A stretch of DNA of 64,000 nt from Prochlorococcus sp. AG-363-O06 (GTDB taxonomy: Bacteria > Cyanobacteriota > Cyanobacteriia > PCC-6307 > Cyanobiaceae). Every line of letters starts with the position of its first letter. The first letter of the stretch is position 1. Positions 13,004 to 41,153 of this stretch are shown piece by piece. The notes beneath the pieces were generated by a model. It saw only the letters and a program-made list of their open reading frames with translations. It searched no databases and was not told the origin of the DNA. A program made the translations under genes and the position numbers. The stretch covers positions 62,001-126,000 of the forward strand of contig QCFY01000001.1 in assembly GCA_003280085.1 (NCBI GenBank), given 5' to 3'.

Positions 13004-14101
13004 ATGCATTTAACAGCCCATAATTTTTGGAAAAGTAAAAGAGTTCTTATAACTGGACATACAGGCTTTAAAGGCTCATGGCTATCTATATGGCTAAAAG
13101 AGTTAGGTGCAGAAATATGCGGTTATTCCCTAGAGGATTACACCAAAGAAATGCTATTTAATAAAATAAAAAATCGCCTTATTAAAGATAAGGTGGATGG
13201 TCTTAGCTTTTCTCATAAGATTGGAGATATAAATGATTTCTCTAATCTTAGCAGTGTAGTTGAGAATTATCAGCCCCAATTTGTATTCCACCTTGCTGCA
13301 CAGTCACTAGTTAAAAGAGGGTATGAAAAACCCATCTTAACTTGGGAAACGAATACAGTTGGTACAATAAAATTATTAGAATCTCTAAAGTCTTTGCGAG
13401 AAAGGTGTATTGTAATAGTTATAACAACTGATAAGGTTTATGATAACAAGGAATGGGCCTATGCTTATAGAGAGATTGACCAGTTGGGAGGGAAAGACCC
13501 ATATAGTGGAAGCAAAGCAGCCGCTGAATTAGCAGTAAAAAGCTGGCGAGATAGTTTTTGTGGAGATAAAAAACACCAAACTAAGTTTCTGAAAGTTGTT
13601 AGCGCTCGGGCAGGTAATGTAATTGGAGGAGGCGACTTTGCTGAGGACAGAATTGTACCAGATGCAATCAAGGCAATTGAATTAAAGGGAAAGTTAAAAA
13701 TAAGGAATCCAAAATCAACGCGACCCTGGCAGCATGTGCTGGAACCCTTAAATGGTTATTTAATGCTAGCGGAGAAGTTATATAGAGAAGATGATTTTTA
13801 TGGCAAAAGTTTTAATTTCGGACCTAGTTCGGATAATGAAAGATATGTCTTAGACTTAATTAAAGCTATATATAGTCATTGGGAAGGTTCATGGGAAGTC
13901 TATGACTCATCAGCCGAGCCACAAGAGTCAAGATTACTCAAGCTGGATTCAAGCAAAGCATTTGAAGAACTTGGATGGAAAGCTAAATGGGACTTCAAAA
14001 CTACTGTTAAAAAAACGGTTGAATGGTATAAAGATATCGCCAATGGTCAAGATCCATATGAAAGGACCCTGAAAGATGTGTGCTCATACAAAGCAGAGTA
14101 A
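13004..14101 (+). CDS. rfbG: CDP-glucose 4,6-dehydratase
   Basis: A 365-residue extended short-chain dehydrogenase. The NAD-binding GHTGFKGSW loop lies at about residues 18-26, and ITTDKVYDNKEW with YREIDQLGGKDPYSGSK gives the active-site Tyr/Lys pair (YxxxK). These are hallmark sequences of RfbG/DdhB. It converts CDP-D-glucose to CDP-4-dehydro-6-deoxy-D-glucose, the first committed step to CDP-3,6-dideoxyhexoses. rfbH follows 33 bases later. The enzyme that makes CDP-glucose (RfbF) is not in this window and must lie elsewhere, or the pathway differs. Confidence 0.93.
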   Translation: MHLTAHNFWKSKRVLITGHTGFKGSWLSIWLKELGAEICGYSLEDYTKEMLFNKIKNRLIKDKVDGLSFSHKIGDINDFSNLSSVVENYQPQFVFHLAAQSLVKRGYEKPILTWETNTVGTIKLLESLKSLRERCIVIVITTDKVYDNKEWAYAYREIDQLGGKDPYSGSKAAAELAVKSWRDSFCGDKKHQTKFLKVVSARAGNVIGGGDFAEDRIVPDAIKAIELKGKLKIRNPKSTRPWQHVLEPLNGYLMLAEKLYREDDFYGKSFNFGPSSDNERYVLDLIKAIYSHWEGSWEVYDSSAEPQESRLLKLDSSKAFEELGWKAKWDFKTTVKKTVEWYKDIANGQDPYERTLKDVCSYKAE

Positions 14102-14134
14102 ACTAAAGTTTAAACATATGTCGAATACCAAACT

Positions 14135-15646
14135 ATGAATAATAATCCCAGTGAAATAAAAGCCAAAATACTCGAATTAACAAGGCAATATTCACATCTT
14201 ACTCACTCGCAATACAGAGCAGGGAATGACCTATTAAGAAAAAAATGGGTTAAAGGCAATCCAATCCCATATGCTGGAAGAGTTTTCGATGAAGATGAAG
14301 TTGAAGCCGCAGTTAGTGCAACGCTTGATTTTTGGTTGACACTTGGGAAAGAAGGAGTTTGTATGGAAAAAGAGTTGGAAAAGTTTCTTGGTATTAGCAA
14401 TTCGTTATTAGTTAATTCAGGATCTTCTGCCAATTTAATAGCTATAAGTTGTCTAACCTCCAACAAGTTAGATGATAAAAAAAGAATAAAAAAGGGCGAC
14501 GAGATTATCACAGTTGCCTGCGGTTTCCCAACAACAGTAGCTCCAATCATTCAAATTGGCGCAATACCAGTATTTATAGATGCTAATCCAATTACTGGCA
14601 ATCCTAATTGTAGCGAGCTAGAAAATGCATTTAATGAAGGCAAAACAAAAGCCGTAATGATGGCCCACGCACTTGGGAATCCATTTGATTTATATAGTGT
14701 TCTATATTTTTGTAAGAAACATAATCTTTGGTTAATAGAAGATAATTGTGATGCTCTTGGCTGTGCATATTCAATGCCAAAGAGCAAAGCTGCTGACTTA
14801 GGAATACATGAAAACAGTCCAGGATTATCAGATGGTTTAGATAAAGTAATTAGATGGACTGGAACATGGGGTGATATAAGTACCCAAAGTTTTTATCCTC
14901 CACATCACATCACCATGGGAGAAGGAGGTGCTGTAAATATAATTAGAGATAAAAAGCTCAAAAAAATAGCAGAGAGCTTTAGAGACTGGGGGCGGGATTG
15001 CTGGTGCCCAAGTGGGACAGATAACACTTGTGGCAAAAGATTTAATTGGAAGTTAGGCGAACTTGAATATGGTTACGATCATAAGTATACATATAGCCAT
15101 CTTGGTTATAATTTAAAACCTTTAGACATACAAGCTGCTATTGGCTGCATACAAATAAGAAAGCTGGAGTATTTTATACAAGCAAGAAAACATAATTGGA
15201 ATATTCTTAGAGAGAAATTGAATGACCTAAATCAATTTTTTGAATTCTGCTTGCCTACTCATGCTACTAATTGGACAAAAGAAAAAGGTTTTGAATGGGA
15301 TGATAGTGGTTGCAAATCAATCTGTTCTTGGTTTGGTTTCAAATTAACAGTCAAGGATAATGCACCTTTCAGCCGAACCGAACTAGCGGAAGTCTTAGAC
15401 AAAAATAAAATTGGCAACCGAATGATGTTTGGAGGAAACCTAATTAAGCAACCGGCATTTGTTAACTTACAAAAGGAAGCGCCTGGAAGTTTTAGAGTGG
15501 TTTCAGAGTTAAAAGGTTCAGATTCAATTATGATGAATACATTATTTCTAGGTACCTACCCTGGATTAACATCTGAAATGATTGATTTCGAGGTGGACAC
15601 AATCAAGCAATTTGTTGAACAGAAATTAAATGAAAATAGTATTTAG
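14135..15646 (+). CDS. rfbH: CDP-4-dehydro-6-deoxyglucose 3-dehydratase (E1), DegT/StrS family
   Basis: A 503-residue PMP-dependent enzyme of the sugar aminotransferase fold. The PLP-binding lysine is replaced by histidine in SFYPPHHITMGEGG (His257). Clustered cysteines at 289, 291 and 299 (RDCWCPSGTDNTCGKRF) match the iron-sulphur feature special to RfbH/AscC E1 dehydrases. It removes the C3 hydroxyl of CDP-4-dehydro-6-deoxyglucose; the family needs a reductase partner (E3), which I do not see here. It forms a pair with rfbG. Products downstream could be paratose, abequose, ascarylose or a branched sugar. Confidence 0.92.
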   Translation: MNNNPSEIKAKILELTRQYSHLTHSQYRAGNDLLRKKWVKGNPIPYAGRVFDEDEVEAAVSATLDFWLTLGKEGVCMEKELEKFLGISNSLLVNSGSSANLIAISCLTSNKLDDKKRIKKGDEIITVACGFPTTVAPIIQIGAIPVFIDANPITGNPNCSELENAFNEGKTKAVMMAHALGNPFDLYSVLYFCKKHNLWLIEDNCDALGCAYSMPKSKAADLGIHENSPGLSDGLDKVIRWTGTWGDISTQSFYPPHHITMGEGGAVNIIRDKKLKKIAESFRDWGRDCWCPSGTDNTCGKRFNWKLGELEYGYDHKYTYSHLGYNLKPLDIQAAIGCIQIRKLEYFIQARKHNWNILREKLNDLNQFFEFCLPTHATNWTKEKGFEWDDSGCKSICSWFGFKLTVKDNAPFSRTELAEVLDKNKIGNRMMFGGNLIKQPAFVNLQKEAPGSFRVVSELKGSDSIMMNTLFLGTYPGLTSEMIDFEVDTIKQFVEQKLNENSI

Positions 15647-15836
15647 CCAGATTAATAAGCTGAAGTTGCAAGAAAATTATAATAGAAACAAATCAGGTTA
15701 ATTAAATAGAAGAAACAATTAATCCATAGATTTACCTCTACTCAAGAATCTATCTTAAATCTATATATTCTATATATATAATAAAATTTTGATTACTTCT
15801 ATATTTCAGCCATAGGTTTTATCCATCTTGCTCTGG

Positions 15837-16718
15837 CTATAAAGTCAAAGTAGAAAAATCTAAAGCTTTATACCAATCATACAATTCTGATATTCCCTGA
15901 TAAAGTTTGGTTTTTTGAATAGAACCTATTTCTTGCCTTAAGCGATCTGAAGAGCCAGAGTATTGGTAATCACAAGGAGTGTTATCTACTAAAATAACTT
16001 TACTTCTATCAATTCCAATAACATCAGCGATAGTATTCATAATAACCTTAAATTTGATTGTCGTGCCAGTACAAAGATTATAAGTATTGAACATTGGCTT
16101 TTCTAAAGTAATAAATCTTTCTAAAGAGTCTAAGAAATCAGAGACATATAAGAAATCAAAGGAAATATCTCTTTGGTATAGTAGAGAAAGGCCATTTAAA
16201 TGTCTAACTATGTTATTAGATATTAATCTTCTTGTGAAATCTTCATACTTACCATATACACCAAACAAACGAAGATTATATATATTGGAACAATTAGAGT
16301 GCATGTGCAGCCTTGAAATAGAATATTTAGAAAGGTTATATTCATCATCATGATTCTCAATTACTGGAGCAGAAAAATTATCCATAAAATATTCCTCCCT
16401 CATCAAAGGCTTATAATTTTGTTTCAAATACTCTACTCCTGAGCCAAGCATTACGATTCTTTCTACATAAGAGGAGCATTGCTCCAAAGCAAAATACATC
16501 CTCAGATTTTCTTCGAGATTTGTATATGAAACAGCAGCATGAATAATATAGTCAGGTTTAATTTCTTTTACATACGAAGTCAACGCATCGGCATTTGTCC
16601 AATCTAATTGCGTTCTTTCGATTGGATAAACTTTATAGTCAGGTGAAACATCATGAAAGTATTCAACTAAATTCCTACCTAAAAAACCGTTAGAACCTGA
16701 CACTATTATTTTCTTCAT
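15837..16718 (-). CDS. NAD(P)-dependent sugar epimerase/dehydratase-type SDR
   Basis: A 293-residue extended SDR. The cofactor loop GSNGFLGRN is at residues 8-16, and a YNLSK active-site pair falls near the middle. It reads towards rfbH, with a 190-base AT-rich gap between the two stop codons. SDRs of this size next to rfbG-rfbH commonly reduce the 4-keto group of the CDP-3,6-dideoxy sugar (abequose or paratose synthase type), so that role is the best guess. Sequence alone does not separate reductase from epimerase. Confidence 0.8.
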   Translation of the reverse strand: MKKIIVSGSNGFLGRNLVEYFHDVSPDYKVYPIERTQLDWTNADALTSYVKEIKPDYIIHAAVSYTNLEENLRMYFALEQCSSYVERIVMLGSGVEYLKQNYKPLMREEYFMDNFSAPVIENHDDEYNLSKYSISRLHMHSNCSNIYNLRLFGVYGKYEDFTRRLISNNIVRHLNGLSLLYQRDISFDFLYVSDFLDSLERFITLEKPMFNTYNLCTGTTIKFKVIMNTIADVIGIDRSKVILVDNTPCDYQYSGSSDRLRQEIGSIQKTKLYQGISELYDWYKALDFSTLTL

Positions 16719-29116: not shown

Positions 29117-30235
29117 TCAAATATGTTTTCTAGGGGAATTACCAATTCGTTCTCCAGAATAACCAGAGGTCTTGCAAACTTGAATACACCAATCAAGATT
29201 AGATAAGTACCAGTCAACGGTAATAGACAAGCCTTTTTGAAAATCAAATGAAGGATGCCAGCCTAGTTCATTGGAAATTCGGGTTGCATCAATCGAATAA
29301 CGTCGATCATGACCTGGTCGATCACGCACCTTTTTCACTTGCTTGAAATAAGGAGAAGTTTTTGGCTTTTTTTTATCCAAAATCTTACAAATTTCCTGAA
29401 CTACTTGTTCATTAGTTCGCTCACCATAACCACCAACACAATAACTACGTCCTAAATCTCCCTTCAACGCAGCTAATAACAATGCATCAATATGGTCTTC
29501 TACATAAAGCCAATCACGAACATTTTCTCCATCTCCATAAAGGGGTATCTCTTCTCCAGCGATTGCTTTCAAAATGACAACTGGTATTAACTTCTCAGGG
29601 AATTGCCAAGGGCCATAATTATTAGAGCAATTAGTTAATATAACTGGCAAGCCATATGTGTGATGCCATGCATTAACAAGATGGTCACTAGCAGCCTTAC
29701 TTGCTGAATATGGACTGCGCGGATCATAAGAAGTGGACTCATTAAAGCGACCACTTGAGTCCAAAGATCCAAAGACTTCATCAGTACTGATGTGATGAAA
29801 TCTAAACCTTGATTGCCTATCGTCCGGCAATGATTCCCAATGGTTACGGACAGCCTGGAGAAGATTAAAAGTACCAATTACATTACTTTCTAAAAAAACA
29901 TTTGGAGTGTCTATAGATCTATCAACATGGCTTTCAGCAGCAAGATGGAAAACCAAATCTGGATTAGCTCTCTCAATTGCTTTGTTGGTTGCATCTATAT
30001 CAAACAAATCAACAGGCAGAAATTCATACCTAGCCCTGCAAGAAAGTTCCGGCATCATTAAAAGCTGTTCAATACTCTTTTGATCACTGGCATAACCACA
30101 TTTATCTAAATTTAAAACCTTTGCATTGGAATAACGCAATAATCTGCGTACTAAAGCACCACCTATAAAACCAGCCCCACCAGTAACCAAAATTCGGTCA
30201 CATGATTCTCCCAATAGAGATGCAGGATCAATCAC
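29117..30235 (-). CDS. rfbB: dTDP-glucose 4,6-dehydratase
   Basis: A 372-residue extended SDR. RILVTGGAGFIGGALVRRL at the N-terminus binds NAD, STDEVFGSL gives the catalytic Thr-Asp-Glu, and YSASK the Tyr/Lys pair. It makes dTDP-4-keto-6-deoxyglucose from dTDP-glucose. The start is GTG (30235); a stop lies four codons upstream and no ATG is available. It is last in the order rfbA-rfbC-rfbD-rfbB, all minus strand, the standard set for dTDP-L-rhamnose. The ADP/UDP alternatives are excluded by motif identity and context. Confidence 0.95.
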   Translation of the reverse strand: MIDPASLLGESCDRILVTGGAGFIGGALVRRLLRYSNAKVLNLDKCGYASDQKSIEQLLMMPELSCRARYEFLPVDLFDIDATNKAIERANPDLVFHLAAESHVDRSIDTPNVFLESNVIGTFNLLQAVRNHWESLPDDRQSRFRFHHISTDEVFGSLDSSGRFNESTSYDPRSPYSASKAASDHLVNAWHHTYGLPVILTNCSNNYGPWQFPEKLIPVVILKAIAGEEIPLYGDGENVRDWLYVEDHIDALLLAALKGDLGRSYCVGGYGERTNEQVVQEICKILDKKKPKTSPYFKQVKKVRDRPGHDRRYSIDATRISNELGWHPSFDFQKGLSITVDWYLSNLDWCIQVCKTSGYSGERIGNSPRKHI

Positions 30236-30281
30236 AGGTATTGGTCACAAAATTTTTGAATATTTCTAATTGAGGAGCTCT

Positions 30282-31187
30282 TCAACCTCGAGGGTTAAAG
30301 CAATTTTGTAACACATTTGCTAATGCTGCTCGCCAATCAATCTGATCCAAACCAAGACCATTGCATGTAGATGTGCAGTCCAGTAAAGAATAACTTGGTC
30401 TCTTTGCTGGCGTGGGGTAATCAAATGTAGAAATTGGTTTCACAGCTGCTGCCGCCTTAAGCAATCCAATCTGCTCACCAATCTCACCGATTGCTACCGC
30501 AAAATCATGCCAACTAGCAAAACCTGCATCACACCAATGAAGCTTTCGGTGTCTTTCAGCCATACCCTCCAAGGCAATGGTCTGCCAACAGGCTTTTGCA
30601 AGGGTATAAGTGGCAGTAGGGCATCCGATTTGATCACTTACAACCTTTAAAGACTCATTAGAAAAGGCTTTCTCTCTATGCAAGCGAAGCATTGTCAAAC
30701 AAAAGTTCTTTCCAACTGGACCATAAAGCCAACTAGTCCTCAAGACCCTGGACCCAGGATGGCGTAAGGCTGCAACCTCCCCCTCAGCCTTAGTAAAACC
30801 ATAAACACCTAAAGGATCTATATGATCATTCGGCAAATATGGAAATTTATTGCGGCCATTAAAAACAAAATCAGTACTAATTTGAAGCAATCGTCCACCA
30901 ACTTCAAATAAAGAGTCAACAAAAGCTGCTGGGGCATCTGCATTGACAGCATAGGCAAGCAGAGGTTCACTTTCCGCCTTATCTACTGCTGTATAAGCCC
31001 CTGCATTAATAATCCAATCTGGAGAGTAACGCTTAACGATTTCCTTACATGCTTTGGCGTTTGACAGGTCAAGTTGATTACGAGTCAAAGCAAGTAGCTC
31101 AATATGCGATTTATTTAGGTTTAAAGGCTTCTGTGCTATTAATTGCTGACCAAGCTGGCCAGAGGCGCCAGTCAAAAGAACTTTCAT
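30282..31187 (-). CDS. rfbD: dTDP-4-dehydrorhamnose reductase
   Basis: A 301-residue SDR with GASGQLGQQ cofactor loop, the YGFTK active-site pair, and the RTSWLYG motif typical of RfbD/RmlD. It reduces dTDP-4-keto-L-rhamnose to dTDP-L-rhamnose with NADPH. ATG start overlapping the rfbC stop (31184-31187), implying coupled translation. Confidence 0.95.
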   Translation of the reverse strand: MKVLLTGASGQLGQQLIAQKPLNLNKSHIELLALTRNQLDLSNAKACKEIVKRYSPDWIINAGAYTAVDKAESEPLLAYAVNADAPAAFVDSLFEVGGRLLQISTDFVFNGRNKFPYLPNDHIDPLGVYGFTKAEGEVAALRHPGSRVLRTSWLYGPVGKNFCLTMLRLHREKAFSNESLKVVSDQIGCPTATYTLAKACWQTIALEGMAERHRKLHWCDAGFASWHDFAVAIGEIGEQIGLLKAAAAVKPISTFDYPTPAKRPSYSLLDCTSTCNGLGLDQIDWRAALANVLQNCFNPRG

Positions 31188-31774
31188 AAGAAAAAGTCCT
31201 CCTCAGTTAATTCTGTATAAAAGGGAGCCAAAGAATCCTTTTCAGAAACCTTTGGATTGCTAATAGTTCCAGGCCAATCTATTGCCAGAACTGGATCATT
31301 CCATCGGATTGCTCTTTCACATTCAGGGCTCCAAAAATCAGTAGTTTTATAAAGGACTTCTGCATAACTGCTCAGGGTAAGAAAACCATGAGCAAATCCA
31401 ACTGGAATCCAAAATTGATGATGGTTATCCGAACTTAAATAAGCCGTAAAAGATCTACCCTTAGTTGGTGAGTTAAGTCTAATATCAATGGCTACATCAA
31501 AAATCTCACCAACTACACACCGCACCAACTTCCCTTGAGAGTGTGGCGGCAATTGATAATGAAGGCCCCTTAGAACTCCTATTTCAGACTTTGAATGATT
31601 GTCTTGAACGAACTCTAAATCCTTCTGATTTTGTTCACTCAAAATATTTTGCCATGTACGTTGATTCCAACTTTCGAAAAAATATCCACGGTCATCTCCG
31701 AACAGGGTGGGTTTCAAAAGCAAAGGCCCAGCAAATCTCGAATTAGAAGTCTTAATTAGGGCTTCAACTTGCAT
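31184..31774 (-). CDS. rfbC: dTDP-4-dehydrorhamnose 3,5-epimerase
   Basis: A 196-residue cupin-fold enzyme from the ATG at 31774; a TTG at 31786 would add four residues. The sequence shows [34 protein letters not shown] with the catalytic His, and [11 protein letters not shown]. It epimerises C3 and C5 of dTDP-4-keto-6-deoxyglucose. It overlaps rfbA by 11 bases and rfbD by four. Confidence 0.95.
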
Positions 31775-32663
31775 TAAATTCTCCAAATGAAGGATTTTCT
31801 AACAATTGGAGGAGATATTCTCCATAACCACTCTTTTTGAGAGGCTGAGCCAAGAGAGCTAACTCCTCATCAGTGATCCAACCTTGTCTCCAAGAAACTT
31901 CCTCCGGACATCCAACTTTAAGTCCCTGGCGATGCTCAAGGGTTCTTATATAAGCTCCGGCCTCATGCAAAGAATCACAGGTGCCAGTGTCAAGCCATGC
32001 CATGCCACGACCCATCAATTCAACAGAAAGAGCACCTTCTGAAAGATATTGACTATTGATATCTGTAATTTCAAGCTCACCTCTTGCAGATGGCTGAACT
32101 TTACGGGCCCTATCTACGACCGTATGATCATAAAAATAAAGACCTGTTACTGCATATCTACTCTTTGGATTAGATGGTTTTTCTTCAATCTTCAAAACCT
32201 TGCCATTAGCTGCAAATTCAACAACTCCATAACGCTCTGGATCCTGAACAGGGTAGGCAAAAACTTTAGCTCCAAGACATGAGGTATTACATGAAATCAA
32301 CTGCGGTATCAGTTCATGACCATGAAAAAGATTGTCACCTAAAACCAAGGCAGCAGATGAACCACCTAAAAAAGTTTCACCAATGAGAAATGCCTGAGCT
32401 AATCCTTCTGGGCTTGGTTGAATAGCATATTGAATATCAATTCCAAAATTATTTCCATTACCTAGGAGTCTCTGAAAAGCCGACTGGTCCTTTGGAGTTG
32501 TGATGATAAGAATTTCCCTAATTCCTGCAAGCATCAATGTGGTCAATGGGTAATAAATCATGGGCTTGTCATAAACAGGAAGCAACTGTTTACTGACTGC
32601 GGTTGTAAGTGGATTCAACCTGGTCCCACTGCCACCTGCGAGAATAATTCCCTTACGCGTCAT
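31764..32663 (-). CDS. rfbA: Glucose-1-phosphate thymidylyltransferase
   Basis: A 299-residue nucleotidyltransferase. [16 protein letters not shown] at the N-terminus binds d[19 protein letters not shown] and [11 protein letters not shown] are family hallmarks. It makes dTDP-glucose, the first step to dTDP-L-rhamnose. First gene of the minus-strand rfb operon; the ATG is 42 bases from the start of the divergent acetyltransferase gene, so both promoters must share that space or reach into the coding regions. Confidence 0.96.
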
Positions 32664-33173: not shown

Positions 33174-33342
33174 ACTATCCCTTATTAAAGAAATTGTAGA
33201 TTTAGCAGAACCTAGAAATGCTTATCCTTAATAATTTACTTACCAAATAATCTTTTTAGGCTCAGCAAGCCCCATGAAGATATACAATAGCAATACATCA
33301 TCATAAATAAAGCAACAAAATCCTATTAATTCATTGAAGTCT

Positions 33343-35190
33343 ATGAAAATACGTTTATCAGATTATGTCGCTCAACGATTTAACGAAATAGGTATAAAGC
33401 ATATATTTCTTGTTACTGGAGGTGGCGCAATGCACCTGAATGATGCTTTTTCTAGAAATAAAAATCTTTCAGTCATTTGTTACCATCATGAACAAAGTGC
33501 AGCAATTGCAGCGGAATCTTATTCTCGAAGCTCTGGGAAACCTGCCGTACTCAATGTTACAAGTGGTCCTGGAGCTATTAATGCGCTAAACGGTGTATAT
33601 GGAGCTTATGTTGATTCTATAAGCATGATAGTAATATCAGGCCAAGTCAAGCGTGAGACATTAAGTTCCAATTGTCATCAACCAATAAGGCAACTCGGCG
33701 ATCAAGAGGTTGATATCGTTTCAATAACCAAACCTATTGTTAAATATTCAGCCACTATTGATAACCCTGAAGATATTTTTAATATTCTAGAGAAAGCAAT
33801 CTACGTTAGCAAATCTGGTCGTCCAGGACCAGTTTGGATTGACATTCCTATAGACGTTCAATCTGCAATAATAGAAACAGATGGCAGACAAGTGTGGAGT
33901 CCAAATATAAAAGATCTAGCAGATGATAAAAATATTTCTAAGAATACTCATATGGAATTTAATCTTGATTCCAAGGAGAAAGTGAATCAAAAGATTTCGA
34001 CTATTATAGAACGGTTATCTTCTTCCAAAAGACCAGTAATTTTTGCAGGGACAGGGGTTCGGCTGTCTAATACTAATAAACTATTCATAGATCTAATAGA
34101 AAAACTACAAATACCTGTTGTTACCGGATGGAATGCACATGATCTTTTATCTTATAGGAATAATTATTACGCAGGAAAACCAGGCACAGTTGGTGATCGA
34201 GCAGGTAACTTTACTGTACAGAATTCGGACTTTATTCTAGTTCTTGGTTGTCGTCTAAATATCAGGCAGATAAGTTACAATTGGAATAGCTTTGCTTCAA
34301 ATGCATGGAAATGCATAGTTGATATTGATTTGGCGGAACTTTCAAAGCCTACACTGTCGGCTGACCTAAGTGTACATACAGATTTAAGAACTTTTATTCC
34401 AGAACTAATTAATCAGTTATCTGATTACATTCCACAGGTTTCTCATCAATCATACCTAAAATGGTGCAAAGAGCGTGTTCTAAAATATGATCCTTTAAAT
34501 GATATAAATGCTTCATCTTCATTGATCAACCCATATTCCTTCCTGGACAAATTTTTTCATTTTTTACCATCTAAATCAATAGTTGTTTGTGGGAATGGGT
34601 CTGCATGTGTGATGGGATTTCAATCAATGAAAAATAAGGAGTCACAACAAATTTTTTCAAATTCTGGCTGTGCTTCAATGGGATATGACCTTCCTGCTGC
34701 TATTGGCGCTTATTACGCTAATCCCTATAAAAATATTATTTGTTTAACTGGTGATGGGAGTGTAATGATGAATATACAAGAACTTGCTACGATTGCAGGT
34801 AATAATCTGCCAATAAAAATCTTTATACTTAATAACGATGGTTATTCATCAATTCAACAATCTCAAAAAGCATATTTCCCTGATAATATTTTTGGGACAT
34901 CATCAGAGAATGGACTATATTTACCAGATTTTACACATATCGCATCTGCATTTGGAATTAAGTCATATAAAATTTCTGAATCAATAGAATTAACAAATGA
35001 ATTCTTTTTTACAATTTTTGAATCAAATCAACCTATTCTAATAGATATTAAAGTTGATCCAAATCAACCATTTATGCCAAAACTAGCATCCCGCAAACTA
35101 GACGATGGAACCATGCTTTCTCCAAGACTAGAGAATATGTGGCCATTCCTTACAGATGAGGAATTTCAAAGCAATCTATTAATAGAATAA
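33343..35190 (+). CDS. Acetolactate-synthase-like thiamine-diphosphate enzyme
   Basis: A 615-residue protein from the ATG at 33343 (a TTG at 33334 adds three). The cofactor glutamate is Glu50 in CYHHEQSAAIAAESYSR, and the TPP/Mg2+ motif is GDGSVMMNIQE at 470 ending in NN at 497-498. The middle domain (about 205-340) fits the FAD-type domain of acetolactate synthase. In sugar clusters such enzymes attach a two-carbon unit from pyruvate to a keto sugar, as YerE does in CDP-yersiniose synthesis. With rfbG/rfbH in the same island that is plausible, but ordinary acetolactate synthase or another decarboxylase role cannot be excluded. First of three plus-strand genes. Confidence 0.85.
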   Translation: MKIRLSDYVAQRFNEIGIKHIFLVTGGGAMHLNDAFSRNKNLSVICYHHEQSAAIAAESYSRSSGKPAVLNVTSGPGAINALNGVYGAYVDSISMIVISGQVKRETLSSNCHQPIRQLGDQEVDIVSITKPIVKYSATIDNPEDIFNILEKAIYVSKSGRPGPVWIDIPIDVQSAIIETDGRQVWSPNIKDLADDKNISKNTHMEFNLDSKEKVNQKISTIIERLSSSKRPVIFAGTGVRLSNTNKLFIDLIEKLQIPVVTGWNAHDLLSYRNNYYAGKPGTVGDRAGNFTVQNSDFILVLGCRLNIRQISYNWNSFASNAWKCIVDIDLAELSKPTLSADLSVHTDLRTFIPELINQLSDYIPQVSHQSYLKWCKERVLKYDPLNDINASSSLINPYSFLDKFFHFLPSKSIVVCGNGSACVMGFQSMKNKESQQIFSNSGCASMGYDLPAAIGAYYANPYKNIICLTGDGSVMMNIQELATIAGNNLPIKIFILNNDGYSSIQQSQKAYFPDNIFGTSSENGLYLPDFTHIASAFGIKSYKISESIELTNEFFFTIFESNQPILIDIKVDPNQPFMPKLASRKLDDGTMLSPRLENMWPFLTDEEFQSNLLIE

Positions 35191-35208
35191 TATTATGGGT
35201 AAAAAAGA

Positions 35209-36345
35209 ATGACTATTTTAAACACCTGCAGTACGGCTCATCCAAATTCTTTTTCTGCATATCGAGCTAACAATATTCTATCATCTAACAAATTTATTAT
35301 TTATGGATATGGTGAAGGTTTTACGGCATTAAAACGAACGGTTTTATTGCCATGCTCCTTAATTCCTATTCTAGTTGTAGATCAACAGTTTGATTCTAAA
35401 CCAGCTGATAATAGTATAAGATGCCTCTCTACAGAGCAATTCTATTTAAAGTCTAAGGAATATATGAACACACCAATTGTCATAACAATTGGCAACCGAA
35501 TGACTGCAAATAAGATTATTGATAACTTATCGAAATTAGGGCTTAAAAAGGTAGTTTGGGCACCTGACATATACGAATTCTCATTGCATCATTCTAATGA
35601 GAAACTTCTTGCTGATCCCGAAGAATATTTCAAATCTCATGAGAATTCAATTCAAAAAGCCTTCACACTTTTATCAGATGAATTAAGTAGAAATACATTT
35701 GCAGCAATTCTAACTAGATATCTTACTGCCTACCCATTAGAGATTCCATCACTACCATTTAAGGATCAATATCTTCCTTATGATATACCAATGGCAAAGA
35801 AGCCTTCACATTATGTATCTTGTGGAGCATTTAATGGAGACTCTATTACTAAAATTTTTAATGCTTTTGGCAAATTCGAAACTATTTATGCTTTCGAGCC
35901 TGATCCAAACAATTTTTCCGAATTAAATAAAACAATATCATCCTATTCTTCATCACTTGGGAAATCAATCATATCAGTTCCTTGTGGAGTTCATTCAAAA
36001 ACTGGATTACTTAACTTTAGCTCTGGGAATGGCCTGAGCAGCAGTGTCGACCCAATGGGTCAATCATATGTACAGGTAATAAGATTAGATGATTTTATAT
36101 CTACAGACTGTCTTACATATATCACTATGGATGTTGAAGGGTCTGAATTAGAAGCACTTGCCGGTGCTACTAATATTCTTGAAAAGAACCAACCTGATCT
36201 TGGCATAAGTGTGTATCATTACCCTCATCATTTGTGGGCAGTGATTGATTTAATAAACAATTTAAATCTAGGCTATAAGTTCTATCTGAGGAATTATTCT
36301 GGATTTACATATGAGACTGTTCTATATGCGACAATAGCCAAATGA
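35209..36345 (+). CDS. FkbM-family methyltransferase with N-terminal Rossmann-like domain
   Basis: A 378-residue protein. Residues 1-110 form a nucleotide-binding-like fold (FIIYGYGEGFTALKR at about 29-43). Residues 200-370 are FkbM: HYVSCGAFNGDS for SAM binding, YAFEPDPNNF, and YITMDVEGSELEALAGA. FkbM enzymes O-methylate sugars or related hydroxyls. It follows the TPP enzyme by 18 bases and overlaps the next methyltransferase by four, so all three are likely one operon. Confidence 0.86.
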   Translation: MTILNTCSTAHPNSFSAYRANNILSSNKFIIYGYGEGFTALKRTVLLPCSLIPILVVDQQFDSKPADNSIRCLSTEQFYLKSKEYMNTPIVITIGNRMTANKIIDNLSKLGLKKVVWAPDIYEFSLHHSNEKLLADPEEYFKSHENSIQKAFTLLSDELSRNTFAAILTRYLTAYPLEIPSLPFKDQYLPYDIPMAKKPSHYVSCGAFNGDSITKIFNAFGKFETIYAFEPDPNNFSELNKTISSYSSSLGKSIISVPCGVHSKTGLLNFSSGNGLSSSVDPMGQSYVQVIRLDDFISTDCLTYITMDVEGSELEALAGATNILEKNQPDLGISVYHYPHHLWAVIDLINNLNLGYKFYLRNYSGFTYETVLYATIAK

Positions 36346-37484
36346 AAAAGTCAAAGACTTGCCGTTGTTGCGGTTATGAATTGCAAGGTACTGCTATACT
36401 TTCTTACCAAAATATGCCAGCAATTGCCCAATTACTGCCTGAAAATATTGAAGATGCAATAAAACAAGATGTATCCCTTGAGATATTTGAGTGCTCTTCA
36501 TGTCATTTAATTCAGCTTTCAAATAAGTATATAGTCCCTTATTATCGAGATGTACTTCGTTCCAGCTCTGTATCTGAAGAAATGAATATCTTTAGACATA
36601 AACAATTCAATAAATTTACAGTCGATTTTAATCTTAAAGACTCAAACTATCTTGAAGTCGGTTGTGGTTGCGGTGAATACCTTTCGATTATGAGCCAGTA
36701 TATTAAAAACTCCGTAGGCTTAGAGAATAGAAAAGAATCAGTTGATTATTGTAATTCAAACTCTATGAAATGCATCCAAGGATTTATCGGAGAATTTCCT
36801 GGTCTAGAGAAGGGATCATTCAATAGTTTTGGCATGTATAATTTTCTAGAACATATACCTGACCCTGTTGACTTTCTGCGTAGACTTAAAACTTATCTAA
36901 GCCCTAATGCAATTGGATTAATAGAGGTTCCAAATTTTGATATTATGCATACTGATGGTGTGTATTCAGATTTTTCATCTGAGCATTTATCGTACTTTAC
37001 CACTCATACTCTTTCAACATGCTTAAAGATTAGTGGATATAATATTCTTGAAATTAAACCAGTTTGGTATGATCATATCCTTTCAGCTAGAGTATCAATC
37101 TATCCATCATTGGATAAATCAATTTTTGAAGACAAATTAAAACATAATTTTAATACTTTCTCTAGTCTGATTGATGAGTACTCTCAGGAGGATGTTGCTT
37201 TATGGGGTGCAGGCCATCAATCAATGGCTTTAATCTCGCATCTTAAACTAAGATCAAAAATCTCTTTTATAGTTGATTCATCACCCAAAAAACAAGGTAA
37301 GTTTACGCCATCTAGTGGCATACCTATTCTATCCCCAGAAGCACTAATAAAATCAAAGGTCAGATTATTAATTATTAATGCTTCAAGCTATGCGCATGAA
37401 GTCGCATCTACAGTTCTTAAGAAATATGCATTTATAGAAAATGTGTATATTGTAGATAATACATCAGTTATAAAGGTTAAATAG
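36342..37484 (+). CDS. NDP-deoxysugar C-methyltransferase (TylC3-like)
   Basis: A 380-residue, three-part protein. An N-terminal zinc-binding domain carries CRCCG at 7-11 and CSSC at about 51-54. The SAM domain has LEVGCGCGEYLS at 104-115. The C-terminal Rossmann-like domain shows VALWGAGHQSMAL at 285-297. This is the Methyltransf_13/Methyltransf_14 architecture of enzymes that put a methyl branch on C3 of a 4-keto-2,6-dideoxy sugar nucleotide. It overlaps the FkbM gene (ATGA) and runs tail-to-tail with the SDR at 37477, overlapping by eight bases. The sugar is unknown. Confidence 0.86.
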   Translation: MKKSKTCRCCGYELQGTAILSYQNMPAIAQLLPENIEDAIKQDVSLEIFECSSCHLIQLSNKYIVPYYRDVLRSSSVSEEMNIFRHKQFNKFTVDFNLKDSNYLEVGCGCGEYLSIMSQYIKNSVGLENRKESVDYCNSNSMKCIQGFIGEFPGLEKGSFNSFGMYNFLEHIPDPVDFLRRLKTYLSPNAIGLIEVPNFDIMHTDGVYSDFSSEHLSYFTTHTLSTCLKISGYNILEIKPVWYDHILSARVSIYPSLDKSIFEDKLKHNFNTFSSLIDEYSQEDVALWGAGHQSMALISHLKLRSKISFIVDSSPKKQGKFTPSSGIPILSPEALIKSKVRLLIINASSYAHEVASTVLKKYAFIENVYIVDNTSVIKVK

Positions 37485-38532
37485 ATTTCATTACAGATAG
37501 TTGAAACTGAATTGTATTTATTATAGCTGTTCTTAATTCTGTCCACTCCTCAAGTCCTAAACGTCTAGCCTTTGTTGTATCTGGTATATATCGATGTGCT
37601 GCGGCTGAATTAGATCCAGAATGATCGATTTGCTCATTCATTATCGATATATCAATATCAGGATTTACTATCTCTTTTACCAAGATGGCTAATTCTTTAA
37701 TGGTTATTTCTCTTTCAGAGCCTACATTATATGCATGTCCATCAAGGCCATTAAAAAGCAAGAAAATTAACCAAAGTGCTAAATCATAGGTATACATATA
37801 CGATCTAATTGCTTTACCATCACTCTTGATCAAAATCCTTTTTTCATAAAGTGAATCTCTGATGAAGTTCCCTATAGAGTAATTGATATCTAAAGGCATT
37901 CCAGGGCCTATAAAGGAAAAGCATCTTGCTATTGTATAGTCAAAATTATCTTTATTCGCATATATCTTATGCAGTAATTCGGCAGATCTTTTACCTTCTG
38001 AATAACAAGCTTCGGGATCATTTAAAACATCTGGAGCTGATGTAAAATCCTCTTTAATATTTAGACCAGAAGATGGCTTTCCATAAACTGATCCAGAGCT
38101 AATATATAAAAGCTTTTTTACGTTATTTATTCGCGCAATATCTAATATATTTCTACTTCCTTCATATATAACATTGAAGCGCTCCAACTCACTTGCCCCT
38201 GAAAATTTTTCTTTGTTTGATACCGAAGCACCATGGATTATATAATCTAGATCTCCTATAAATTCAAAATTCCTAACATCACCTTCTATGAAGATTATAT
38301 CGTCTAGATATAAATCAATTAATCTACTTTTTGCTTTAAATATATCTCGAGTTAGTACAAATAATTTGCCATGGCATGAATTTGATTTCCTATAAGTAGT
38401 AATTAAATCTATGACTGGTCTGCCGAAAAATCCAGTCATTCCTGTAAGCAAAATATCGTGATTATTAAGATTATGCAAATACTTATTAGCCTTAATCTGA
38501 TAAATATTCGAATGACTTTTATAATTAAACAT
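37477..38532 (-). CDS. Sugar-nucleotide SDR (epimerase/dehydratase/reductase type)
   Basis: A 351-residue extended SDR from the ATG at 38532; an in-frame TTG at 38541 would overlap the upstream gene by four bases. ILLTGMTGFFGRPVIDL binds NAD(P), YISSGSVYGKP gives the catalytic Ser, and CYSEGKR the Tyr/Lys pair. RSYMYTYDLALWL and YNVGSEREITI are typical of the NDP-glucose dehydratase and UDP-glucuronate decarboxylase group. It ends a four-gene minus-strand cassette with a radical SAM enzyme, an aldolase and a phosphatase, and may reduce or epimerise the product. Confidence 0.86.
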   Translation of the reverse strand: MFNYKSHSNIYQIKANKYLHNLNNHDILLTGMTGFFGRPVIDLITTYRKSNSCHGKLFVLTRDIFKAKSRLIDLYLDDIIFIEGDVRNFEFIGDLDYIIHGASVSNKEKFSGASELERFNVIYEGSRNILDIARINNVKKLLYISSGSVYGKPSSGLNIKEDFTSAPDVLNDPEACYSEGKRSAELLHKIYANKDNFDYTIARCFSFIGPGMPLDINYSIGNFIRDSLYEKRILIKSDGKAIRSYMYTYDLALWLIFLLFNGLDGHAYNVGSEREITIKELAILVKEIVNPDIDISIMNEQIDHSGSNSAAAHRYIPDTTKARRLGLEEWTELRTAIINTIQFQLSVMKSI

Positions 38533-38537
38533 TTTAT

Positions 38538-39203
38538 TCAATTTATACTTTTGGAATCGATATATGCCTTATAAATACTTGAATATTTATAATAGGGGGT
38601 ACCAGAAAATCTACAATCTAATTCCTCATATCCCAAAGAATGGTGGATATAGTCTATTTTTGCTAGCTTAGCAGTCTCTGCATCGATATTACTATCACCT
38701 AAGAAGATACAGTCTTGTTTATCTGCCTCCAACCTCTCTACAATAGAAATGAGCATATCTTGATGTGGTTTCTTGATAGTAAGACTATCTCCGCCGAGTA
38801 CTAGATCAAAGAATCTATCTATATCTATTTCCCTCAGTACCTTGATGCAAAGCAAATGAGGCTTATTACTACAAATAGCCATTCTCTTTTTATCCTTCTT
38901 AAGTTTGATCAGCAATTTCTTTACATCTTTATAAATTAATTCTTTACCAGTCTTTTGCTTCTTATACAAAAATCTAAATTCATCAACAACTTTATAAATA
39001 TTCTCTCCATAAAAATGCTTTTTTGCCATGCATTCTGCTCCTTTACTGATTTGATCTATAACATCCTTTCTGGTTAATAAAGGTTGACTACGAGCAACTT
39101 TCATTTTATTCAAGACTAACAAATTGATGCTAGCGCTGTCTACAATCGTACCATCCAGGTCAAAGATAAAAACATTATATTGCGACAGAACTTCTTTAAT
39201 CAT
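38538..39203 (-). CDS. HAD-family phosphatase
   Basis: A 221-residue protein from the ATG at 39203, chosen because it overlaps the aldolase stop as ATGA (39200-39203); an ATG at 39227 would add eight residues. The nucleophile motif is FDLDGTIVDS (Asp15, Asp17), motif II is CSNKP, and KKPHQD and LGDSNIDAETA are motifs III and IV. A helical cap lies between. The phosphoglycolate-phosphatase group acts on small phosphorylated metabolites; here a sugar phosphate made by the adjacent aldolase is the likely substrate. Confidence 0.86.
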   Translation of the reverse strand: MIKEVLSQYNVFIFDLDGTIVDSASINLLVLNKMKVARSQPLLTRKDVIDQISKGAECMAKKHFYGENIYKVVDEFRFLYKKQKTGKELIYKDVKKLLIKLKKDKKRMAICSNKPHLLCIKVLREIDIDRFFDLVLGGDSLTIKKPHQDMLISIVERLEADKQDCIFLGDSNIDAETAKLAKIDYIHHSLGYEELDCRFSGTPYYKYSSIYKAYIDSKSIN

Positions 39204-40000
39204 ATATTTCCTTCTAAGACATTCCATCTTGATTCAAGTACATTAATTCTTTCGGCATCTTCCTCGCCTAGATAATGATAATAAGATTTTTTATTAATAA
39301 GCCATAATAGTTCAAATTTAACGGCGAGTAGTAAGCCTTTTTGAATCTCGCGATTCTGTAAGTTCGAAGCATCGAAAATAATTTTTCTTGTTTCATACCT
39401 ATCAAGTCTAATTTTCTGGACCTCTCTTAAGAAATCTATTGCATAAAGTGATACACTACCGCCAAGTATCAGCTCCAGGTTTCTTTGTTTACACAGCTCA
39501 GAAACAGTTTTAACTGCTATAAGTATTTCTTTTGAATTAGCTTCATCTCTAGGCATCCCCATTGATAAAGCAAAGTCCACTCTTCCAAAAACTATACCTT
39601 TTAGAATATCCGACTTTTGAGCAAAACTAGATAATTTTTCCGCTTGACTCAAGCCTGTTTTTGTTTCAATATTAAATAAGACCTGTGGGAGCAAATCATC
39701 ACTAGTATATGTTCTTTGAATAGAAGAATGATATTTTTCTAAAGCATATTGACTTTCAATCATTGGTGCTATTAAATAGTCTACACCAATCTGTTTTGCA
39801 TCTAAAATATCCTTAATTGCTTCGCAACCACCAATTTTTATTCCAAGCTTAACGCCTGCAGTCTTAGTAATATCTACTAGTCGCAAAAGCTCCTCTATCC
39901 TTGTTCCCTCCGCCTCAAATTCTGCCTTTACACCAACGCATCCATAATCAGCTTTCAACCTGACTAGAATTGCCAACATTTCTTGTTCTCTTTTATTCAT
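39200..40000 (-). CDS. HpcH/HpaI-type aldolase (class II, pyruvate-type)
   Basis: A 266-residue TIM-barrel protein. NIETKTGL and FGRVDFALSMG give the metal-binding Glu and Asp in the order of HpcH/HpaI and citrate-lyase-beta enzymes. YLIAPMIESQYALEKY and ILGGSVS are further barrel strands. Such enzymes split or join pyruvate (or acetyl/oxaloacetate) units and aldehydes. In a glycan cluster beside a phosphatase it may build a longer-chain keto sugar. Its usual substrates in catabolism are aromatic-degradation intermediates, for which there is no other sign here. Confidence 0.78.
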   Translation of the reverse strand: MNKREQEMLAILVRLKADYGCVGVKAEFEAEGTRIEELLRLVDITKTAGVKLGIKIGGCEAIKDILDAKQIGVDYLIAPMIESQYALEKYHSSIQRTYTSDDLLPQVLFNIETKTGLSQAEKLSSFAQKSDILKGIVFGRVDFALSMGMPRDEANSKEILIAVKTVSELCKQRNLELILGGSVSLYAIDFLREVQKIRLDRYETRKIIFDASNLQNREIQKGLLLAVKFELLWLINKKSYYHYLGEEDAERINVLESRWNVLEGNI

Positions 40001-40046
40001 TGTTGCTTTCCTTTGTTGGTTTCATTTTATCTAAAGTCAAAATCGA

Positions 40047-41153
40047 TTAGGGCATCCATTTTTCTGCCTTTGCCTCAGTCACAAAATCTGACTTATCAAA
40101 TACTAATTGATAGGGAACTGGCTCTTTGGAGGCCCAAATTCTTGGCATATATTTCTGAACAAACTCATCATCCTTATTGCCAGAAAGACAAGTTCTTTTT
40201 TGTTCATATGAAAAATGTCTTAAATCCAAACCCCTTTGCAATATAGTATCCAGTCTCTCTTCAAATATATTGCCAATTGAAGTCTGAATATAAGGACATG
40301 GCATGACATGCCCATATTTAGTGATTGTTATGTTTCTCTTTACGGCTATGCATCCACTTTTATTACCATATTCCCCCCAAAACCTAGTCGAAAAAGGATA
40401 CTTTTCATTTAGCTCTTCTAAATGCTTGATATCTTTGTCTCCACATACTGTATCTAACTTCCCCGCCCAAGCTCCTATTGGCTTTGCCAAGGTTACATAG
40501 ATTTGAACATCCTTACTCTTCCCAAATTCCAATAATTGGATAAATTCTTCTGACCATGCTCTTTGTTTCGTGACACATGTCATTATCAAGACTTGTAGAC
40601 CAGCCGACTTAGCGGAATCAATTGCTCTCATTACTCGATCATATGCGCCATCCTTATTTCGAAACTGATCATGCTCTTCTCTTATAAAGCTATCAAGAGA
40701 TATCTGAACTTTATCAAGACCAATGCTCCTTAAATGTTTAGCCTTTTTGTCATTGAGAAACCAGCCATTGGTATCAGCTGCTATCCAAAATCTTTCTGGT
40801 CCAATAGCTTCTACAACCTGATCAAAATCTGGATAGCTTAATGGTTCACCTCCTGAAATTGCTACGTGAGATAATCCCAAAGAATGCGCTTGGTCGAACA
40901 AATCTCTAACACTCTCAGGATTTAAGAATTTTCTCTCAAGGGATTTTTTTCTATCTTCTGCTGTCTTAATCATCAAATTATCAGAGCTGCAATGTTCACA
41001 TTTGAAATTACATATATACTCATAATTTAAGGTGATCATCGCAATGCTCTTTCCCTGAGCAGCTATATCTGGCTGTTTTAAAATTTTGTCTAAAACAATG
41101 GGCTTGCTTTTCCTGAGCTTATCTCTTCTTTTCTCCTCAACCTTGGTTAACAT
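40047..41153 (-). CDS. Radical SAM enzyme with C-terminal auxiliary cysteine region
   Basis: A 368-residue protein. The [4Fe-4S]/SAM motif is ICNFKCEHCSS with Cys48, Cys52 and Cys55 (CX3CX2C). AISGGEPL binds SAM and VQISLDS lies on the barrel. After residue 265 come GCIAVKRNITITKYGHVMPC and a later Cys-Leu-Ser-Gly, like the SPASM/twitch region of MoaA/PqqE relatives. The reaction is not predictable from sequence; sugar-modifying radical SAM enzymes (epimerases, dehydratases) exist. It heads the cassette with the aldolase, HAD and SDR genes, 46 bases before the aldolase. Confidence 0.86.
   Translation of the reverse strand: MLTKVEEKRRDKLRKSKPIVLDKILKQPDIAAQGKSIAMITLNYEYICNFKCEHCSSDNLMIKTAEDRKKSLERKFLNPESVRDLFDQAHSLGLSHVAISGGEPLSYPDFDQVVEAIGPERFWIAADTNGWFLNDKKAKHLRSIGLDKVQISLDSFIREEHDQFRNKDGAYDRVMRAIDSAKSAGLQVLIMTCVTKQRAWSEEFIQLLEFGKSKDVQIYVTLAKPIGAWAGKLDTVCGDKDIKHLEELNEKYPFSTRFWGEYGNKSGCIAVKRNITITKYGHVMPCPYIQTSIGNIFEERLDTILQRGLDLRHFSYEQKRTCLSGNKDDEFVQKYMPRIWASKEPVPYQLVFDKSDFVTEAKAEKWMP

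Follow-up and report, generated by a model that had tools for sequence, protein, structure and literature searches.

What do four closely spaced minus-strand genes in a Prochlorococcus genome, encoding a radical SAM enzyme, an HpcH/HpaI-type aldolase, a HAD phosphatase and an SDR, make together? A first-pass annotation proposed that they constitute a new sugar pathway. Based on comparisons of the genes and their neighbourhoods in the window, i.e. the whole stretch of 64,000 nucleotides of Prochlorococcus sp. AG-363-O06 that was analysed, we suggest that, most likely, all four contribute to a larger pathway for a bacterial surface sugar, the partner genes of which lie outside the four-gene interval, at 33334-37484 on the plus strand and at 13004-16718.

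The four genes and their surroundings

The four reading frames are intact, retain the residues typical of their families and lie where they were first annotated (Table 1). An ATGA overlap couples two of them, as had been noted; it is found at one junction only, between the aldolase stop and the HAD start, given that the HAD protein starts at the ATG at 39203. This start is likelier than that of the longest reading frame (38538-39227, 229 aa), in which the ORF caller set the start at 39227. The HAD and SDR genes overlap by TTGA, unless translation of the SDR begins 9 bases further, at an ATG, and 46 bp separate the radical SAM and aldolase genes. Promoter and terminator scans gave results at chance level, so that the operon is proposed from spacing alone.

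Table 1. Genes of the window considered in the proposed pathway
Feature	Position	Strand	Properties
Radical SAM enzyme (RSAM, c16)	40047-41153	-	368 aa; Pfam PF04055 Radical_SAM 7e-23, PF13186 SPASM 3e-6
HpcH/HpaI-type aldolase (c0)	39200-40000	-	266 aa; PF03328 HpcH_HpaI 5e-10, 39 bits
HAD-IA phosphatase	38538-39203	-	HAD_2 2e-28; likelier start ATG 39203
SDR, Epimerase family (c10)	37477-38541	-	354 aa from TTG; PF01370 4e-30
SAM-dependent C-methyltransferase, nucleotide-sugar type (c23)	36342-37484	+	Methyltransf_23, Methyltransf_14
FkbM-family methyltransferase	35209-36345	+	PF05050 2.5e-15
YerE-like ThDP carboligase (c1)	33334-35190	+	best solved match 8rph, E 9e-109
SDR (c9)	15837-16718	-	48% identity to c9 of L052
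RfbH, CDP-4-keto-6-deoxyglucose 3-dehydrase	14135-15646	+	NF011936 630 bits, cut-off 423
RfbG, CDP-glucose 4,6-dehydratase	13004-14101	+	TIGR02622 469.6 bits, cut-off 278.45

The genome also encodes RfbF, on a different contig (G000:C9:18068-18835), and RfbF, RfbG and RfbH all score above their equivalog cut-offs; together they are the gene set for CDP-4-keto-3,6-dideoxyglucose. On contig C9, RfbF adjoins a split transketolase pair (L078 9566-12205), away from the RfbG and RfbH genes of the window. The proposed pathway genes within the window are scattered across 28 kb on both strands and RfbF is on a separate contig, which weakens the case for a single common product. The same island holds four genes that, read from their ORFs, resemble the dTDP-rhamnose set RmlB, RmlD, RmlC and RmlA (29117-32663).

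The aldolase and its ThDP-dependent partner

The aldolase is a remote member of the HpcH/HpaI family, far from characterised enzymes, and a search of the PDB with the single sequence gave no significant match. A profile of its family matches best the 2-keto-3-deoxy sugar aldolase YfaU (2vws) and the hydroxyketoacid aldolase SwHKA (6r62), and the structural model (pLDDT 94) is an aldolase/citrate-lyase-type barrel that matches the barrels of SbnG, SwHKA, HpaI and CLYBL. E112 and D142 are invariant across 39 sequences and align with the metal-ligand positions of YfaU and HpaI, and the class features, i.e. the barrel fold and the metal-binding Glu and Asp, are thus present. The likewise invariant K55 may, in our own placement rather than by the profile alignment, lie where Arg70 of HpaI is expected and substitute for this active-site residue. 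4-hydroxy-2-oxo acids are products of pyruvate aldolases, and we propose that the aldolase is the source of a 2-keto-3-deoxy (4-hydroxy-2-oxo) acid that serves as a donor. The HAD protein carries the motifs DLDGT, SNK and GDSNID, has phosphoglycolate phosphatases as its nearest solved relatives, and is proposed to dephosphorylate the aldol product.

Searches for relatives of the aldolase gave hits in 14 other genomes out of 197 related ones, at 21 loci of other bacteria and in three plasmid records. The 38 aldolase loci tabulated were collected by similarity and pattern searches rather than sampled at random, and the comparison loci are mostly MAGs. A YerE-like ThDP gene lies at most 5.3 kb from the aldolase gene in 25 of them; the pairing spans Melainabacteria, Elusimicrobiota, Nitrospirota, Thermodesulfobacteriota and Bacillota as well as the family of the window itself, and most pairs have genes for RfbF, RfbG and RfbH (glucose-1-phosphate cytidylyltransferase, CDP-glucose 4,6-dehydratase and RfbH), complete or partial, beside them. 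The other 13 loci have no ThDP gene within the stretch read, as in Ilyobacter, where the aldolase gene lies beside aconitase. At L054-L057, two adjacent distant aldolase paralogues lie near an LdpA-like gene, without a ThDP gene, a case in which the aldolase family is used differently.

The ThDP enzyme of the window matches the solved structure 8rph far better than AHAS, the next match (E 3e-68), and shares only 33% identity with its paralogues in the same genome, which rules out a housekeeping acetolactate synthase; in a tree, it groups with aldolase-linked homologues. 8rph is JanthE, a YerE-like enzyme (PMC12188165). CDP-4-keto-3,6-dideoxyglucose is the known acceptor of YerE and ErwE. According to a review (PMC12247030), YerE takes pyruvate as donor, and ErwE instead attaches a hydroxylated 2-oxo acid to this acceptor, with a preference for donors such as 4-hydroxy-2-oxo acids. 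We propose that the ThDP enzyme of the window decarboxylates a keto acid and attaches it at C-4 of a 4-keto sugar. Because this enzyme is the aldolase's partner and RfbF, RfbG and RfbH provide the sugar backbone, the chemistry would be that of the known YerE/ErwE class of branched 3,6-dideoxyhexoses.

The proposal of a new four-gene pathway thus stands only in part. The ThDP gene, usual partner of the aldolase, lies outside the interval and the backbone comes from RfbF, RfbG and RfbH, which rules out self-containment; for the combination itself we found no description in the literature consulted. Similarly, a neighbourhood search for the four genes, suggested with the annotation, detected them all together at no locus other than that of the window, but the aldolase, HAD and SDR c10 genes recur as a trio in L036 and L039, and L090 has a radical SAM gene with SDR c10, ThDP and C-methyltransferase genes.

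The window contains two linked candidates for side-chain ketoreduction. Homologues of SDR c10 (36-39% identity) are encoded close to the ThDP enzyme and the aldolase in L029, L036 and L039, with a weaker one in L034, and SDR c10 adjoins the radical SAM gene in L090. SDR c9 is common in aldolase/ThDP clusters, being found in L020, L022, L026, L028, L032, L035 and L085. We propose SDR c10 as the side-chain ketoreductase, with SDR c9 as the alternative candidate. The C-methyltransferase, in which the N-terminal zinc domain is weak, has homologues near the ThDP enzyme in L050, L052, L085 and L090 and is proposed to be a tailoring enzyme. The FkbM-family methyltransferase probably acts in tailoring as well; FkbM-type genes are also present in the L085 cluster. 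We conclude that the module is real, conserved and biosynthetic, and that its parts are ordinary.

Proposed exchangeable donor modules and the radical SAM enzyme

Among the 25 loci with both aldolase and ThDP genes, a HAD gene (HAD-IA or HAD-IIA) is present in eight and an AroB-like gene in 12, none has both and five have neither. A Fisher test of this mutual exclusion, uncorrected for kinship, gives p = 0.0016, and in the ThDP tree the donor-module variants cluster partly by descent. The AroB-like gene is TIGR04425-like and usually comes with an SDR gene; AroB-like plus SDR in place of HAD is seen in L028, L029, L031, L033, L034 and L035 and, within the family of the window, in L044 and L047-L050 (L047, L048, L049 and L050). 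These clusters may make carbocyclic branches. Literature searches returned no description of the combination aldolase/AroB/YerE.

A third arrangement occurs in three genomes (G255, G681 and G201), in which a NeuB-like synthase and a protein of 190-214 aa are encoded upstream of the ThDP gene; at this locus, members of the aldolase family described above were not seen. The small protein of G255 and G681 matches NT5C (HAD superfamily) weakly, with a score under the curated cut-off, and shows HAD-like motifs on visual inspection; that of G201 is its homologue. The cassettes at L090, L085 and L103 consist of a NeuB-cupin fusion (the NeuB-like gene of L090 contains a masked stretch), an NT5C-like protein and a YerE-like enzyme, and RfbF and RfbH adjoin those of L085 and L103. 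The window's own genome (77% complete) contains only a weak partial match to the NeuB-like synthase, outside the NeuB domain.

These variants agree with the first-pass annotation in its view that the gene order follows the condense-then-dephosphorylate logic of ulosonic-acid synthesis: HAD proteins of two classes or an AroB-like protein accompany the aldolase and, in the three related clusters, a NeuB-like synthase is followed by the weakly matching NT5C-type HAD protein. They also bear on the possibility that the ThDP enzyme takes plain pyruvate, as YerE does (PMC12247030), to form a yersiniose-type sugar, for the reduction of which SDRs are present, and that the aldolase and HAD phosphatase act on something else or at a later point, e.g. 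to lengthen the side chain once it has been coupled. Given that a different ulosonate-type synthase and a putative phosphatase take the place of the aldolase beside the same ThDP family, we hold this to be unlikely and favor the model that aldolase and HAD phosphatase supply the donor.

The radical SAM protein has C48, C52 and C55 in a Cx3Cx2C motif and C268, C286 and C322, all invariant in eight sequences. That the auxiliary cysteines are three only makes the auxiliary cluster twitch-like rather than a full SPASM, suggesting that the enzyme carries a twitch-type cluster. Its AlphaFold model (pLDDT 80) is closest in fold to SkfB, MoaA and PqqE; the sugar-acid decarboxylase BlsE comes lower in the list.

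Homologues with 44-47% identity are present in all three NeuB-variant genomes. In L090 (G681), the homologue (45%) lies between the C-methyltransferase and SDR c10 genes with the ThDP gene nearby, and in the window, too, the C-methyltransferase and SDR c10 genes flank or neighbour the radical SAM gene; in L085 (G255), the homologue is inside the NeuB-variant cluster, and that of G201 lies apart, on a short contig; linkage to the cluster is thus seen in two of the three genomes. Constant membership in the aldolase cassette is ruled out, given that the radical SAM gene is present in only one of 16 aldolase-bearing genomes tested outside the window's family. Within that family, more distant relatives (33-34%) are at loci other than that of the aldolase (G006, G019 and G119), and a class-wide search for closer relatives added none. 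A radical SAM gene of this family lies beside genes for a FabG-like SDR and a split transketolase in L067 (7512-11151), L068 (6837-10479) and L086, and in L067 LuxC-, LuxE- and AMP-binding-type genes follow this stretch.

Alternatively, the island could be a patchwork in which horizontal transfer assembled the four genes without a shared pathway, and in which the radical SAM gene above all is unrelated. The GC content of the stretch is low (0.32-0.34, compared with about 0.37-0.41 in the flanks), the four genes are not found all together elsewhere, and the distant radical SAM relatives in G019 and G119 accompany SDR and split transketolase genes. However, the reading frames overlap, the radical SAM gene is linked to ThDP, C-methyltransferase and SDR genes in L085 and L090, and the aldolase cluster L052 contains a different radical SAM/SPASM gene; we therefore regard a patchwork as quite improbable. 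Returning to a shared pathway, the radical SAM enzyme may, judging from linkage only, tailor the branched sugar by a dehydrogenation, an epimerisation or a deoxygenation.

A proposed pathway and its counterparts

Combining the above, we consider it rather probable that these genes serve the synthesis of a CDP-linked 4-C-branched 3,6-dideoxyhexose with an aldolase-built side chain; gene identities, linkage and module swapping are observed, and every reaction, the step order, the aldehyde and the product are inferred. In this pathway, (i) RfbF, RfbG and RfbH would generate CDP-4-keto-3,6-dideoxyglucose, (ii) the aldolase would condense pyruvate with an aldehyde, probably a sugar phosphate, to a 2-keto-3-deoxy (4-hydroxy-2-oxo) acid phosphate, (iii) the HAD phosphatase would strip off the phosphate, (iv) the YerE-like enzyme would decarboxylate the keto acid and link the acyl carbanion thus formed to the ketone at C-4, (v) the SDR at 37477 or that at 15837 would reduce the ketone formed by coupling, (vi) the radical SAM enzyme and the C-methyltransferase would tailor the sugar, and (vii) glycosyltransferases of the island would transfer it to a surface glycan. 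The assignment of aldolase and HAD to donor supply, of the ThDP enzyme to coupling and of an SDR to reduction is proposed from the donor preference of ErwE and the side-chain pattern of caryophyllose.

More tentatively, and with a little less than even confidence, we suggest that YerE-like branching is a modular chemistry with swappable donor modules, in which aldolase and phosphatase would give open chains, aldolase, DHQ-synthase-like cyclase and SDR carbocyclic branches, and NeuB-like synthase and phosphatase ulosonate-derived branches, and that the variant of the window adds a radical SAM step and gives an undescribed sugar. From the AroB-like and NeuB-like swaps, one would expect bacterial surface sugars with carbocyclic and with ulosonate-derived branches, and the side chain of such a sugar could be predicted with the help of the neighbouring donor module.

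In NeuB/KdsA-type ulosonic acid synthesis, as proposed for the window, condensation is followed by dephosphorylation to a 2-keto-3-deoxy acid; the synthase there is PEP-dependent, whereas the window encodes a pyruvate aldolase, and no CMP-activating enzyme was found in the window's genome (77% complete), in which the acid is proposed to be a substrate of the ThDP enzyme. That a free ulosonic acid (Kdo- or nonulosonate-like) is the product of the aldolase and HAD phosphatase, to be activated with CMP and then used as such, independently of the ThDP enzyme, is very unlikely despite this shared order of steps and the profile match of the aldolase to YfaU, since the aldolase is strongly linked to the ThDP gene and no CMP-sugar synthetase scores above the PF02348 cut-off in this incomplete genome, compared with 11 of 14 control genomes that have one, which disfavours a CMP-ulosonic acid as end product.

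The proposed branched-sugar pathway also has counterparts in those of three known sugars. The synthesis of yersiniose A has in common with it RfbF, RfbG and RfbH, ThDP-dependent coupling at C-4 and reduction by an SDR, but YerE acting on pyruvate needs neither an aldolase nor a phosphatase and the window has both. Caryophyllose of Mycobacterium marinum carries a 1,3,4,5-tetrahydroxyhexyl branch at C-4 in the account given in PMC5706390, i.e. a 1',3'-dihydroxy, 2'-deoxy pattern as expected from a reduced pyruvate aldol donor, and the enzyme, MMAR_2332, has an ErwE-like donor preference according to the review (PMC12247030). The text on ErwE and on the caryophyllose enzyme in these two sources leaves the origin of the donor unnamed. 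The linked aldolase and phosphatase offer a concrete, testable origin for the hydroxylated 2-oxo acids that these enzymes use, suggesting a source of the unusual building blocks in branched bacterial sugars. The counterpart in erwiniose synthesis in Pectobacterium atrosepticum is ErwE, which according to the review (PMC12247030) resembles the proposed system as a YerE-like ThDP enzyme that acts on CDP-4-keto-3,6-dideoxyglucose with a 4-hydroxy-2-oxo acid donor.
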